Source: Bacteroidota bacterium (GTDB lineage Bacteria; Bacteroidota; Bacteroidia; UBA8524). Taken from it: 64,000 bases of DNA. Where the stretch lies: positions 1-64,000 of the forward strand of contig WBUH01000017.1 in NCBI GenBank assembly GCA_008933805.1, written 5' to 3'. Under the pieces are notes generated by a model. That model did not search any database and had not been told where the DNA came from. It worked only from the letters and a program-made list of their open reading frames with translations. How positions within the stretch are numbered: the first letter of the stretch is position 1; the number at the start of each line of letters is the position of its first letter. Of this stretch, positions 34,657 to 39,898 are shown piece by piece. Both the position numbers and the translations under genes were made by a program.

Positions 34657-35847
34657 TTATTTCAACAGCCACTGCTTTTTCTCACCGTCAAACACATACT
34701 CACCCACATTGGTGCTGTGTTTCTCAAACAACTCGTGGCTATCGTCCCTAAACAATTGTAGCTGTTTTAACGCTTGCTTATCCAACGTAATGCTATCGTT
34801 TTCGTATTGTGATACGGGGTAAATGGCATAGCTGTTTTTGCCGTTCACTTCCTTTTTATCCACCCACGTTAAAAAGTAGCCACACTCTTTTAGCGTAGTG
34901 GCTTTTTCTTTTTTCTGCAACACCAATTTAAACATAGCCCCGCCGTCTTTATAGCGTTCGCGTTGGTTGCTTACAAAGTTACCAAGCGAGTACACTACAA
35001 TGCTTTCGCGCTTTAGTGTGCTGTCGTATTTGCGGTGCATGGGCTGCAGCACGTGCGGGTGCGACCCGATTACATAATCAGCACCGTAACGAAGGCATAT
35101 ATCCGCATAGTTTTTTTGGTATGCATTGGGCAAAGGTTGGTACTCATCGCCCCAATGGGTAACAATGATAATCTTGTCAGGGTTCAACCTTTTGGCAGCT
35201 TTTATATCCTCTTTTATCACCAATGAGTCAAGCAAATTCACAATGGTGGGTTCGGGTACAGGTATTCCGTTGGTGCCGTAGGTATAGTTAAGCACCGCTA
35301 CTTTTATACCGTTTTTCTCCAGCCACAAAATATTGTGTTTTTTACGGTCGGCTTCATCTTTAAATGTACCCGTACGCGGTATGCCCAAACTGTCTAACAC
35401 TTGCACGGTGCGTATAATGCCGTTTTTACCGCGGTCGCAACTGTGGTTGTTAGCAGTAACCAAATACCGTATTCCCGAGTTTTGCATGGCATTTGCCAAA
35501 GCATCAGGAGCACTGAACTGCGGATAACCGCTATACGGTTCACCTGCCAGCGTAAGCTCAAGATTGGCGATACTGAAATCAACCGACGATGCAATGGGGG
35601 CAATGGGAGCAAAGCAAGAAGAGTAATCGTACACTTTGGTGGAGTCGTTATAAGCTGCCCTTATTTGCGGGCCGTGTTGCATTACATCGCCCATAAACAA
35701 CAACGAGATTTCGGTGGCACTATCAGCCGCTTGTTGCTGTGGAGTTTCAATTGTTTTGCTATGGGTTTGTTTACAAGAGCAACCAATAGAAACAGTGGTG
35801 GCAATGGCTGCAACGGCAAGATATTTTACTAATAAGGGGGCTTTCAT
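34657..35847 (-). CDS. CapA-family (poly-gamma-glutamate synthesis-like) lipoprotein
   Basis: The 396-residue protein has a lipoprotein-like signal peptide (VSIGCSC near residue 20). The CapA/PgsA metallophosphatase-like fold follows: LLFMGDVMQHGPQ near 53 with the metal-binding GD, the ANLELTLAG strand, ANNHSCDRGKNG near 135, IIVTHWGDEYQP near 234 and VIGSHPHVLQPM near 264. Relatives are needed for poly-gamma-glutamate capsule anchoring or act as secreted phosphatases of unknown target. No pgs genes are nearby, so the second role is as likely. I chose the ATG at 35847; the frame runs open upstream across the promoter. Confidence 0.88.
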   Translation of the reverse strand: MKAPLLVKYLAVAAIATTVSIGCSCKQTHSKTIETPQQQAADSATEISLLFMGDVMQHGPQIRAAYNDSTKVYDYSSCFAPIAPIASSVDFSIANLELTLAGEPYSGYPQFSAPDALANAMQNSGIRYLVTANNHSCDRGKNGIIRTVQVLDSLGIPRTGTFKDEADRKKHNILWLEKNGIKVAVLNYTYGTNGIPVPEPTIVNLLDSLVIKEDIKAAKRLNPDKIIIVTHWGDEYQPLPNAYQKNYADICLRYGADYVIGSHPHVLQPMHRKYDSTLKRESIVVYSLGNFVSNQRERYKDGGAMFKLVLQKKEKATTLKECGYFLTWVDKKEVNGKNSYAIYPVSQYENDSITLDKQALKQLQLFRDDSHELFEKHSTNVGEYVFDGEKKQWLLK

Positions 35848-35864
35848 GTATTTACGGTAAAGGG

Positions 35865-35894
35865 CAAAAATAATATATAAACGGCGGTTGCAAA
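35865..35894 (-). promoter_or_regulatory. Minus-strand promoter of the CapA-like gene
   Basis: TTTG (35894-35891), an 18-nt spacer and TATTTTTG (35872-35865) on the minus strand, 17 nt before the ATG. Confidence 0.7.
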
Positions 35895-35923
35895 GCAAGT
35901 TAAACACTCTGTGTACAGCAATC

Positions 35924-35954
35924 TTTTCAAGTACCCCGAAAAGTAATATTTTTG
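35924..35954 (+). promoter_or_regulatory. Promoter of the DUF350-DUF4178-spermidine synthase operon
   Basis: TATTTTTG at 35947-35954 is a perfect -7 element; the -33 position holds TTTT (35924-35927). It precedes the ATG at 35974 by 19 nt and is the only clear promoter in the five-gene operon. Confidence 0.6.
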
Positions 35955-35973: not shown

Positions 35974-36255
35974 ATGAAAAAACTCATCTTACTGTTTGTA
36001 TTTGCGTTAACCAGTTTTCCGATGTGGGCCGATGTGGCCGAAAGGCCTTTTTACGAAAAAGGAATACCCGGAACACTTATCTACTCAGCAGTCGGAATTT
36101 TAATTGCCTTGTTGGCGTTTAAGGTAATTGACTGGATTACACCCGGTAAATTATCGAAACAAATTACAGAAGAAAAAAACGTAGCGTTAGCAATAGTTAC
36201 GGGAGCCCTTATTTTGGGCATTTGCATTATTGTAGCCGCAGCCATTTCAGGTTAA
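35974..36255 (+). CDS. DUF350 family small membrane protein
   Basis: The 93-residue protein has an N-terminal hydrophobic segment (2-19) and two further helices (about 34-55 and 70-92). The middle TLIYSAVGILIALLAFKVIDWITPGKLSKQITEEKNVALAIV matches the repeat of the DUF350/YjfL family: hydrophobic helix, charged loop with K-x-[IL]-x-x-[ED]-x-N-x-A, hydrophobic helix. YjfL-type proteins occur beside PspA-like proteins and ATP-grasp or polyamine enzymes in other genomes. That points to a membrane-related modification or stress system. It is the first gene of five closely packed genes. Confidence 0.85.
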   Translation: MKKLILLFVFALTSFPMWADVAERPFYEKGIPGTLIYSAVGILIALLAFKVIDWITPGKLSKQITEEKNVALAIVTGALILGICIIVAAAISG

Positions 36256-36260
36256 TTTTT

Positions 36261-36698
36261 ATGCTGGGGATACTTATCGGCAGCGAAATCCAAATTAAGA
36301 AAGTTTCGTATAAGGTAACTGCATACGTTTTGTATTGCAGCGAAGGCGAGTATTGGGCTGAGTGGCAGTTGACCAACAGTGTGAAACGGGTGTTTTGGCT
36401 GGCACAAGACAGCAGCGGCTTGACATTGTATGAAGAAATGCCCGAAAAGCCTACGATAGATATATATGAGGCTAAAGTGGCTAATGTAGTAAAGGTAAAC
36501 GGGGCGGATGTATGGCCTATAGCCAATTATAAAGCTACTGTTATTGAAACAAGCGGGGATGCCGGATTACGTGAAAACGATGTTGAAGAAGTAGCCGAAT
36601 TAGTAAATGATAGCGGAAGATTTGCAGTGGTTGCGCACCACCATGAGTTGAAATTATATAAGAGTGAACTACTCACCAACAAAGACGTTAAAATTTGA
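36261..36698 (+). CDS. DUF4178-like domain protein
   Basis: The 145-residue soluble protein is all-beta in appearance. Its YKVTAYVLYCSEGEYWAEWQL segment, a Trp-rich strand and the later VFWLAQDSSGLTLYEE resemble DUF4178, which also occurs in the next protein. The open frame begins at 36222 inside the DUF350 gene; the ATG at 36261, 5 nt after that stop, is the likely start. The last codon overlaps the TTG start of the next gene. DUF4178 proteins are typical neighbours of DUF350 and of spermidine-synthase-like genes; their biochemical role is unknown. Confidence 0.7.
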   Translation: MLGILIGSEIQIKKVSYKVTAYVLYCSEGEYWAEWQLTNSVKRVFWLAQDSSGLTLYEEMPEKPTIDIYEAKVANVVKVNGADVWPIANYKATVIETSGDAGLRENDVEEVAELVNDSGRFAVVAHHHELKLYKSELLTNKDVKI

Positions 36699-38083
36699 GT
36701 ACCACCCATAATTGCCCCGATTGTTCAGCTCCGTTTACGGTGCATAGCCAGCTTAGTCATTACTATGTGTGTACTAAGTGTAAATCGCTATTGCACAAAA
36801 ACAAGGGTAGTTGGGCAAAAGATGTTGCTGCAAATGGCGTTTACATCGAAAAAATTGCCAGTGCGCTTTGGATAGGGGATAATATAAAGATAAAGGGTGC
36901 AGACTATACTGTAATATCATTGGCGGGCTACAAAGGGAACTACTTTGAATGGGACGAAGACGACGGAAAGTATTTGGGTGCAGATAATTACAGGTTTATT
37001 GAGGTAGGCTTGCAAGATGCTAAGGGCTTTTTTGTTACCATGATTGAAGATGTGGATGGGTTTACCATTTCGCAGCGGGTAATACCGCCACGAAGTTGTA
37101 TTCCTGAAGAAACATCAAAAGGGGATATTGCTTTTTTTGAGCTGAAAGGCAGCGGTAGAAAGCTTGAGCAAGGAAACTACAAACCCACATCGTTTGTGGG
37201 TGAGTTTAGCTACAAACCCGATGTTGAAGAAACGACTTACTATGCGGATATCAGAACTAATGAGCCTAATAGAAAAGGCATAATATCTGTTGAGTGGCAG
37301 TTTAACAATCGTGTACCGCATTCTGTTGAGTTTTTTGAAGATACCCCCCAAGAGTTCGGAGGGTTGGGAGCAGTAATAAAGGACGAGGTAATGCTTGAGC
37401 GGGCAAAGCCCCTTGTTTGGGCAAAGAACTCGGTATTCTTATTTTTTGCTCTCGCGATGGCCTTTTTAGTAATGGCCGCGATAATGAAGGTTTCAAGCGA
37501 GAATTTAATTTTTAAAGAAACGTTTTCATACGGTTTTTACGAAGGTTTTCGGAAAGATTCTGTAGTGACTCAAGAATTTGAGCTTGGGGACGTGGGTGCA
37601 ATGTACGAGTTAAAACTAAAGAATGCACCCGGTTCATCTGCCGACCAAACCTTAGATGTAGTGATTGATGTTGTTGACGCCAATAATAAAATAGTAAATA
37701 GTTTTGACACCGATTTTTTTATTGAAACAGGGTATGATGATGAAGGCGCTTGGACAGAAAGTGAAAAGGAGGCGACCCTGCTGTTAAGGCTTGACCAAGG
37801 GGGAGTATACCGTCTTTTGATAACTTACGCAAATACCTCCATTGCCAATAATAGCATTTCGGGTAATTTAAATGTACAACTAAACAAAACCCATGTGCTA
37901 CGTTACTACATATTTGGGTTTGGAATATGTTTGCTGCTTGGGTTTATTTGTATGCAGTTAGAGGCTTGGTACATGTACAAGTACTTTAAAAAATCAGTAG
38001 GCTTTTTTTCAACCGAACATGCTCAGGTTTTTTGGGGCGTAGTGGGGGTTATTATTATAATTTTACTTTTCAGTTACTTATAA
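36695..38083 (+). CDS. Zinc-ribbon, DUF4178 and transmembrane protein (TTG start)
   Basis: The 462-residue protein starts at a TTG that overlaps the previous stop (TTGA). A zinc ribbon (Cys7, Cys10, Cys26, Cys29) is followed by a DUF4178-like domain (about 45-115: IKIKGADYTVISLAGYKGNYFEW) and a second, similar beta region (about 150-230). A transmembrane helix is near 248-268. Then a beta-sandwich-like extracytoplasmic domain (275-400) lies between it and two C-terminal helices (405-425, 443-462). The protein thus links a cytoplasmic DUF4178 module to the envelope. No alternative ATG precedes the zinc ribbon. Confidence 0.78.
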   Translation: MSTTHNCPDCSAPFTVHSQLSHYYVCTKCKSLLHKNKGSWAKDVAANGVYIEKIASALWIGDNIKIKGADYTVISLAGYKGNYFEWDEDDGKYLGADNYRFIEVGLQDAKGFFVTMIEDVDGFTISQRVIPPRSCIPEETSKGDIAFFELKGSGRKLEQGNYKPTSFVGEFSYKPDVEETTYYADIRTNEPNRKGIISVEWQFNNRVPHSVEFFEDTPQEFGGLGAVIKDEVMLERAKPLVWAKNSVFLFFALAMAFLVMAAIMKVSSENLIFKETFSYGFYEGFRKDSVVTQEFELGDVGAMYELKLKNAPGSSADQTLDVVIDVVDANNKIVNSFDTDFFIETGYDDEGAWTESEKEATLLLRLDQGGVYRLLITYANTSIANNSISGNLNVQLNKTHVLRYYIFGFGICLLLGFICMQLEAWYMYKYFKKSVGFFSTEHAQVFWGVVGVIIIILLFSYL

Positions 38084-38325
38084 TGTTAAAGTATTCAAAA
38101 TACATACTTGCCTTCTTTGGTGTGGTAATATTCTCAACTGTTTTTTGGGCATCAAGCAGGGGTTGGGGCATACCAACAGTTACTAACAAAAGCGTAATAA
38201 AAGAAGCTCAAAACTGTCCGCCTGAGCAACGCGATGCATGGGGTAATTGCCCTACAAGAACAACTCGGTCAAGCATACGGTCACGTTATTTTTCGGGAGA
38301 CGGTAATGGAAGTGGCGGAAAATAA
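38083..38325 (+). CDS. Small membrane protein with Cys pair and basic tail
   Basis: The 80-residue product has one hydrophobic helix (about 8-26), then a segment with C-P-P-E-Q-R-D-A-W-G-N-C-P (Cys pair 11 residues apart) and an Arg/Ser/Gly-rich C-terminus. The ATG at 38083 overlaps the previous stop codon (TAATG), and the last 20 nt overlap the start of the spermidine-synthase-like gene. The overlaps and fixed position show it belongs to the operon. I do not recognise the family. Confidence 0.68.
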   Translation: MLKYSKYILAFFGVVIFSTVFWASSRGWGIPTVTNKSVIKEAQNCPPEQRDAWGNCPTRTTRSSIRSRYFSGDGNGSGGK

Positions 38326-39898
38326 AAACACTATAAGTGATAAGCACGTACCCGTACTGTTGGCATCCATACTGGTAATATCCGCCTGTGCCATCTTGTA
38401 TGAATTGCTGATAAGCACCCTTTCCAGCTACTTTTGGGGCAGCAGCATCCTGCAGTTTTCAATTACCATCGGTGTATTTCTTTCCTCAATGGGTTTGGGG
38501 GCATACCTGTCAAGGTTTATCACTACCCGCTTGTTAGAGCGTTTCATAGTTATAGAAATTTGGCTGGCGTTGCTGGGCGGTTTATCCGCACTCATACTCA
38601 ATGCAGCCTACACTCTCACTCAAAATTATTACCTCATAGCCATTGGTCTTATCATACTTTTAGGTACGCTTATAGGGTTAGAAATCCCGCTACTCACCCG
38701 CATACTTCGCAGTTACAAAAACCTGCGCAATACCATTGCCAATGTGCTCTCGTTCGATTATTTGGGTGCTTTGCTGGCATCGTTGGTATTTCCGTTTTTG
38801 TTACTGCCTTATTTGGGTGTAATGAAAACCTCTTTTGTAGTGGGCTTATTAAACTTAGCCGTTGCAGCGTATTCATTATTTATTTTCAGGCGTGAAGTAC
38901 AAAAATGGGGGCGAAAAATTATGGCAACTGTAGCTGTGTTTATTGCCCTGTTGGGTGGTTTTGCAGCCGCGGTAAACATCACCGGATTTTTTGAAAAATT
39001 TGTGTACCAAGATGAGATTATCTACACTTCACAATCACCTTATCAAAAGATAGTACTTACCCGCTGGAAGGACGATATACGGTTGTTCCTTAACGGTAAC
39101 TTGCAATTTTCATCGGTTGATGAATACCGATACCACGAGCCTTTGGTGCACATACCCATGCTATTGGCAGGAGAAGGGACTAAAAACGTGTTATTGCTGG
39201 GTGCCGGCGATGGGCTGGCCGCCCGCGATTTATTACAACATTACAGCGGATGTAAAATTACTATTGTAGATTTAGACAAGGCTGTAACCGATATATGCGC
39301 AAGCCATCCGCTAATTACAGGCATTAATCAAAATGCACTTAAAAATCCTGCTGTAACCATCGTAAACGATGATGCGTTTAACTTTATTAAGAACAGTAAT
39401 ACAAGGTACGATGTGGTGCTGATTGACTTACCCGACCCGCACGACCCGGGTCTTAGTAAGTTATATTCAAGGGAGTTTTATGAATTGGTACGTCAATCGT
39501 TAGCAGTGGGAGGGGTGGTAGTTACACAAGCCACCTCGCCGTTTTTTGCCACCAAGCCTTTTTGGTGCATACACAACACAATGGGGCAGGTGTTTAAACA
39601 AGTAGTGGCTTATCATACCCAAGTTCCCTCGTTTGGTATGTGGGGTTTTCAAATGGCATATAACCTGCCTCAGCAAATGGAAACTGTTGTACCAAGCGAT
39701 AGTATTGCAAAACACATTGCTCAAAAATTTTCGACAAAAAAATGGAGTAAGCCACTACAGTATTTAAATGCTGCTACCATACCCTCAATGTTTGTTTTTG
39801 AAAACGATGTTGACCGTATTAAAACCGAAGTAAACACATTGGATAACCATGCACTGCTGCACTATTATGAAGATAGCTGGAAACGGTTTAACCCTTAA
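38306..39898 (+). CDS. Membrane-embedded spermidine-synthase-like protein
   Basis: The 530-residue protein has an N-terminal membrane domain with about seven helices (15-230) and a C-terminal aminopropyltransferase (spermidine synthase) fold. In the latter the order YQKIVLTRW near 257, LFLNGNLQFSSVDEYRYHEPLVH near 270-292, LLLGAGDGLAARDLL near 307, VDLD near 329 and LIDLPDPHDPGLSKLYSREFY near 373 is clear. The Asp in DLPDP is the expected catalytic base. Related fusions accept polyamine or unknown substrates. No S-adenosylmethionine decarboxylase gene is in the operon. I chose the ATG at 38306; the open frame extends upstream into the previous gene. Confidence 0.88.
   Translation: MEVAENKNTISDKHVPVLLASILVISACAILYELLISTLSSYFWGSSILQFSITIGVFLSSMGLGAYLSRFITTRLLERFIVIEIWLALLGGLSALILNAAYTLTQNYYLIAIGLIILLGTLIGLEIPLLTRILRSYKNLRNTIANVLSFDYLGALLASLVFPFLLLPYLGVMKTSFVVGLLNLAVAAYSLFIFRREVQKWGRKIMATVAVFIALLGGFAAAVNITGFFEKFVYQDEIIYTSQSPYQKIVLTRWKDDIRLFLNGNLQFSSVDEYRYHEPLVHIPMLLAGEGTKNVLLLGAGDGLAARDLLQHYSGCKITIVDLDKAVTDICASHPLITGINQNALKNPAVTIVNDDAFNFIKNSNTRYDVVLIDLPDPHDPGLSKLYSREFYELVRQSLAVGGVVVTQATSPFFATKPFWCIHNTMGQVFKQVVAYHTQVPSFGMWGFQMAYNLPQQMETVVPSDSIAKHIAQKFSTKKWSKPLQYLNAATIPSMFVFENDVDRIKTEVNTLDNHALLHYYEDSWKRFNP

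Follow-up and report, generated by a model that had tools for sequence, protein, structure and literature searches.

The window, by which we mean the whole 64,000-nucleotide stretch of DNA that was analysed, comes from a Bacteroidota genome of 4.29 Mb (97.7% complete) and carries five closely packed genes on its plus strand. The first (35974..36255) encodes a short-form DUF350 membrane protein of 93 aa (PF03994, 4.4e-15), which is the sole DUF350 copy in the genome, and the second (36261..36698) a DUF4178 protein of 145 aa (PF13785, 1.6e-7), the only DUF4178 match above the cut-off in the genome. The third gene (36695..38083), which starts with TTG, specifies a protein of 462 aa combining a zinc ribbon, a DUF4178 domain, a second beta-rich domain and C-terminal transmembrane (TM) helices. 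It is followed by the gene (38083..38325) for a small single-TM protein of 80 aa, our candidate acceptor, whose Ser/Arg/Gly-rich tail ends in GDGNGSGGK, and by the gene (38306..39898) for a membrane aminopropyltransferase of 530 aa, hereafter the synthase, with an N-terminal helical membrane domain and a SpeE domain. The DUF350 and DUF4178 genes are separated by 5 nt, and the following junctions are overlaps of 4 nt (TTGA), 1 nt (TAATG) and 20 nt. A sequence-only reading of this DNA had proposed such a tightly joined operon, and all five open reading frames were found where it had placed them. Its assumption of one promoter fared less well: a possible Bacteroidota -7 box, TATTTTTG (TAnnTTTG, 35947..35954, plus strand), does lie upstream of the DUF350 gene, but the pattern match is weak and such boxes are not above chance frequency in a count over the whole window. 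Further upstream, a divergent gene (34657-35907) appears, from its sequence by eye, to encode a CapA-type (PGA_cap) metallophosphatase-like protein.

The 462-aa protein had also been read as a DUF4178 protein. This second DUF4178 domain falls below the Pfam cut-off (E = 0.0039), and the assignment was confirmed through homologues. In an alignment of 21-22 of these, the zinc-ribbon residues C7, C10, C26 and C29 are invariant. The predicted structure (pLDDT 79.9) would consist mostly of strands, with long helices at 231-267, 402-432 and 441-461, and a fold search with this model returned beta-rich matches at chance level only.

Linkage and distribution of the operon genes

Among 80 relatives from the same class, nine genomes contain a full-length synthase. 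DUF4178 was detected in eight of these nine and in one of the 71 others, always near the synthase on the same contig, and in the ninth synthase genome it was found with a profile built during the analysis. The check for linkage in other genomes that the earlier reading called for was also run on 80 named loci from many phyla, and the genes are linked across them, in the recurring order SpeD, DUF4178, zinc-ribbon-DUF4178, small gene, DUF350 and synthase, with variations. In the window operon this order is rearranged, and DUF350 comes first. Two of its genes had been taken for additions peculiar to this locus; the zinc-ribbon-DUF4178 gene is in fact a customary member of the module, and the 80-aa protein belongs to a group that occurs in many phyla and always ends in lysine. 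The other four genomes of the window's family lack both a full-length synthase and DUF4178, and the distribution is therefore patchy. In one genome of the set (G051; C11:900-1310 and C12:5525-6007), DUF4178 is present together with a 187-aa frame that retains both ends of the synthase, its catalytic middle seemingly deleted.

A C-terminal lysine in the linked small protein

The 80-aa protein matches no Pfam or NCBIfam family and is not a lipoprotein, and no Pfam family covers any of ten representatives of such small proteins. Its homologues can be aligned within groups only, and all end in GK. The sequence-only reading had singled out the cysteines of this protein; the idea that they are conserved was ruled out, since no more than 5 of the 14 homologues that could be aligned have Cys; what is conserved is the GK at the C-terminus. 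In the window, the final Gly-Gly-Lys codons lie at 38314..38322 on the plus strand and would include the proposed modification site, Lys80; a [GH]K end was present in all homologues tested.

We collected all short ORFs that have a TM-like stretch and lie in the gap adjacent to DUF350 or to the synthase, a lysine end not being required. At each of the 47 loci with such an ORF, one ends in lysine (36 GK, 11 HK), and at the loci with exactly one candidate, which represent 12 groups at 50% synthase identity, the score is 38/38. By comparison, lysine ends 10.2% of the ORFs of at least 150 aa at the same loci and none of 26 antisense ORFs. The small ORFs are genes, because dN lies far under dS in close pairs (for example 0.077 versus 2.8, 0.07 versus 0.82 and 0.008 versus 0.15), which indicates purifying selection, and one homologue is annotated in a plasmid record as a hypothetical protein of 48 aa. 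All HK tails in the synthase tree fall within one clade, which spans several phyla. The mean net charge of the tail (+4.0) exceeds that of the N-terminal flank (+1.4), so that, by the positive-inside rule, proteins of the small kind would have their tail on the cytoplasmic side, together with the SpeE domain.

The same kind of S/R/G-rich tail ending in GK or HK is also found on other carriers. It is borne by a DUF4178-TM protein at seven loci devoid of the small gene (L031, L037, L041, L042, L055, L056 and L118), by the zinc-ribbon protein at one (L017), and by lipoprotein-like and other proteins elsewhere (L049, L054, L057, L061, L070, L078 and L120-L122). In Alteromonas (L125, 9204-10736), a hypothetical protein of 510 aa beside DUF350 ends in GPSSGK, and the cluster includes a toxic-anion-resistance (TelA-like) gene. 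These alternative carriers usually adjoin DUF350; as they were picked by their GK/HK ending, they illustrate the tail as a module and do not test it. The ten best-covered loci without a tail are synthases with no DUF350 or DUF4178 alongside. One locus (L144, 4157-6811) has SpeD, zinc-ribbon-DUF4178, a 53-aa GK protein and DUF350 but no synthase; the synthase of this genome (L028) stands alone on another contig. A wider actinobacterial check for DUF4247 tails gave no matches in the 61 genomes drawn.

The membrane synthase has an intact active site

The synthase matches NF002956/PRK03612, named polyamine aminopropyltransferase at NCBI, over residues 6-527 with 592 bits (cut-off 472). Against the speE equivalog TIGR00417 it reaches 142.6 bits, far under the cut-off of 249.55. 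In the AlphaFold2 model (pLDDT 91.8), helices are predicted at 12-233, followed by a SpeE fold; 1uir, 6bq2 and 7xif are among the top PDB matches, and the best ones are all aminopropyltransferases. Both sequence and model are thus in agreement with the membrane location and the enzyme identity first suggested. Compared with canonical spermidine/thermospermine synthases (SpeE; 1uir, 6bq2, 1inl), the catalytic domain shares fold and residues, but the window enzyme has the added membrane domain, and in its hallmark DLPDP a proline is invariant where the soluble references have S or T.

A search for lost substrate residues, proposed with the original reading, was carried out on an alignment of 90 synthases. 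Q267, D272, E273, Y276, H277, E278, GxGDG at 299-303 (G299, D302), D322, D324, D356, D374, D377 and Q408 are invariant, and the window enzyme has all the residues by which spermidine synthase binds decarboxylated AdoMet (dcAdoMet) and the amine (GxGDG, Q..DE..YHE, D..D, Q). No catalytic column differs in the synthases from SpeD-less genomes, which excludes an altered active site in these enzymes. Orphan synthases, with no tail gene nearby, retain identical catalytic residues, and the active site alone cannot therefore separate protein from small-molecule acceptors. Residues 414, 379 and 521 are among those that separate HK-tail from GK-tail enzymes, a difference that is confounded with phylogeny and is a hint only.

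In the membrane domain, E84, E126 and D151 are invariant or near-invariant, and E33 is near-invariant. Such polar positions in a large membrane domain, and the membrane setting itself, would suit an enzyme that aminopropylates a lipid or an envelope polymer amine, for example phosphatidylethanolamine, with the tail protein as a scaffold. We regard this as very improbable, as no lipid gene is consistently linked to the operon and the terminal lysine would remain unexplained.

Absence of SpeD from the window genome

The sequence-only reading had pointed out that the operon lacks SpeD, and this extends to the entire genome. Neither class-1 (PF02675) nor class-2 (PF01536) AdoMet decarboxylase was detected in it, and a profile made from 16 operon SpeDs found nothing at E<=1, whereas the same profile gave 1.2e-37 in a control genome (G043). 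A SpeD overlooked by Pfam is ruled out by the class-2 family and the tailored profile. For carboxyspermidine decarboxylase, the window genome gave one weak match only, below the cut-off.

Among the 80 class relatives, SpeD is present in seven of the nine genomes with a full-length synthase and in 4/71 of the others. Of 50 named genomes with a synthase, 38 have SpeD and 12 are without class-1 SpeD; in one Desulfobulbaceae genome (L023; G102 C100:7200-8012), a eukaryote-type class-2 enzyme replaces class 1. Altogether, with G000 and G046 counted in, 13 synthase-bearing genomes have no detectable SpeD, namely the window's and 12 others. On the synthase tree the SpeD-less genomes cluster near the window (8/14 in the window clade), and at least seven changes are needed, which rules out loss in a single event. 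Incompleteness of metagenome-assembled genomes may account for single absences, but not for the whole pattern. Four genomes (G030, G075, G035 and G011) have 6 to 11 weaker membrane-synthase matches each and no SpeD; these are probably of the MFS-SpdSyn type. At another locus (L115, genome G060), SpeD is cut to 91 aa and DUF4178 is in fragments, through frameshift decay or sequencing error.

These data bear on whether the synthase is an ordinary polyamine enzyme tethered to the membrane, which would stabilise the membrane through a local supply of spermidine or of another free polyamine akin to it. Such a role is in keeping with the conservation of all canonical catalytic residues, with the NCBI family name and with the presence of SpeD in 38 of the 50 named genomes. 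We nevertheless find it improbable, given the score far under the equivalog cut-off, the window genome devoid of SpeD and the lysine tail, which would be left without a reason. Moreover, Li in 2019 reportedly found that SpeD-linked fusions of a membrane domain to spermidine synthase (SpdSyn) fail to complement a SpeE mutant, and is said to have proposed an acceptor other than putrescine. The window synthase differs from those enzymes in that no SpeD accompanies it.

The tail ends follow the chemistry of the neighbouring enzyme

DUF350 also occurs in operons with an ATP-grasp ligase. In E. coli, the DUF350 gene yjfL adjoins yjfM (DUF1190) and yjfC, annotated as peptide-spermidine ligase, and ygiB-ygiC is similar; both YgiB and YjfM have S/R/G-rich tails with a GG end. 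YgiC and YjfC are reported to be peptide-spermidine ligases (Pederick et al. 2023, Biochemistry 62:899). We compared nine annotated neighbours of ATP-grasp ligases, two from E. coli and the others from Vibrio, Rhizobium, Sulfitobacter, Pseudomonas, Acinetobacter, Deinococcus and Sphingomonas. Eight of the nine have an RGGFG-type tail with a GG end, and none ends in K. The exception is the Sphingomonas protein, which has another ending after its RGGFGSS tail, and a tenth neighbour, from Azospirillum, is an unrelated long protein. The DUF350/DUF1190/ATP-grasp operons (yjfJKLMC, ygiBC) are like the window operon in that DUF350 stands beside a small S/R/G-tailed envelope protein and a polyamine-type enzyme. 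However, they pair a ligase with a GG tail, whereas here an aminopropyltransferase is paired with a Gly-Lys end, and the GSP_synth ATP-grasp enzyme (PF03738) is absent from the window's genome.

A ligase of this type requires a C-terminal carboxylate and an aminopropyltransferase an amine, and the tail ends fit the adjacent enzyme's chemistry. This fit is among the evidence for our proposal, a reading towards which we lean, that the terminal lysine receives an aminopropyl group from the synthase in the way that the C-terminal carboxylate receives spermidine from the ligase. The lysine-ended partner suggests that the enzyme decorates a protein tail instead of making free polyamines, and the choice of 'lipid, peptide or polyamine' acceptors initially offered can be narrowed to one candidate, the lysine with which the 80-aa protein ends.

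A possible mode of action

For the acceptor and donor of the system, its product and its function, we infer the following. The operon would constitute an inner-membrane protein-modification system in which the 80-aa protein acts as acceptor, its place being taken in other subtypes by a similarly tailed lipoprotein or DUF4178 protein. The lysine side chain would offer its -(CH2)4-NH2 end, as putrescine does to ordinary spermidine synthase. The product, a protein anchored in the membrane and bearing a cationic tail like a polyamine, would resemble the spermidine-on-C-terminal-glycine product expected of the ATP-grasp ligases in the sister DUF350 operons. In SpeD-less genomes, either an unrecognised source could supply dcAdoMet as the donor, or AdoMet could serve directly. 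In the more specific form, membrane SpeEs would convert the strictly C-terminal Lys of their partner into N6-(3-aminopropyl)lysine, AdoMet as a donor in SpeD-less genomes perhaps giving amino-carboxypropyl lysine instead; to this form we assign about even chances. The DUF350 and DUF4178 proteins are presumed to be assembly or sensing partners, and a function in envelope stress may be expected from the literature on related operons (PMC11237479).

Conservation of the terminal residue could also stem from a role in binding or regulation, with no modification involved. The tail protein would then be an unmodified regulator whose C-terminal lysine mimics the amine in the SpeE active site, or occupies a polyamine or lipid site, and which inhibits, anchors or senses, while the aminopropylated product of the enzyme is a different one. 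A pseudosubstrate too would require a strictly terminal lysine, and the strongly cationic tail suits binding to lipids or acidic surfaces. But the tail moves between unrelated carriers and its last residue varies with the neighbouring enzyme, GG standing by the ligase, a pattern more to be expected of a reaction site than of a charge anchor; we consider such a regulator unlikely. A cytoplasmic tail is less easily reconciled with the lipoprotein carriers: where carriers are predicted lipoproteins, the tails should lie outside the cytoplasm, away from AdoMet-type donors, and modification of their lysine would need to come before export. That 13 genomes with the enzyme, the window's included, have no detectable SpeD also weighs against the proposal.

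Relation to known systems

A survey of the PSP system (Ravi et al. 2024, PMC11237479) describes operons of the 7TM-SpeE/DUF350/DUF4178 kind and, citing Li et al. 2019 (Biochem J 476:2579), also gives the view that the fusion transfers aminopropyl groups to something besides polyamines. The likeness to the operons in that text concerns the synthase architecture, DUF350, DUF4178 and 7TM-SpeE in one operon, and both sources share with our proposal the idea of an acceptor that is no normal polyamine. The second group of operons in the survey has a PspA-CesT/Tir dyad, which is absent from our five genes; the best PspA match in the window genome (24.2 bits, cut-off 33.9) lies on another contig. The passages of it that were consulted name a lipoprotein, Ctha_1186, but neither a small TM protein nor a C-terminal lysine rule. 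In open-licence papers we found no mention of the lysine tail or of lysine aminopropylation. Operons of this type, and the suggestion that the acceptor is not a polyamine, are thus already in print; what is new here is the C-terminal-lysine group.

Deoxyhypusine on eIF5A is an aminobutyl-lysine formed at an internal lysine. If our prediction holds, the modification would likewise extend a lysine side chain by a polyamine-type group, but with another enzyme and donor, at a C-terminal lysine and with an aminopropyl group.

Membrane SpeE fusions are widespread, and the question of their acceptor has stood since the reports that they produce no spermidine. The conserved C-terminal lysine of a linked protein offers a single cheap test of it, as the proposal makes the acceptor directly testable through a predicted +57.06 Da on the last residue. 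If true, it would define a new bacterial protein modification, account for polyamine-type enzymes inside DUF350 envelope-stress operons, and bring the SpeE and ATP-grasp versions together as two chemistries that each yield a polyamine-like tail at the C-terminus. Short unannotated genes of such operons would best be annotated by their last residue, not by sequence similarity.

At the Novosphingobium locus (L124, 6442-8432), a gene for a FAD-dependent oxidoreductase lies between the synthase gene and speD, with an SPFH protein encoded upstream; this oxidoreductase could be an oxidase able to reverse or mature the modification.
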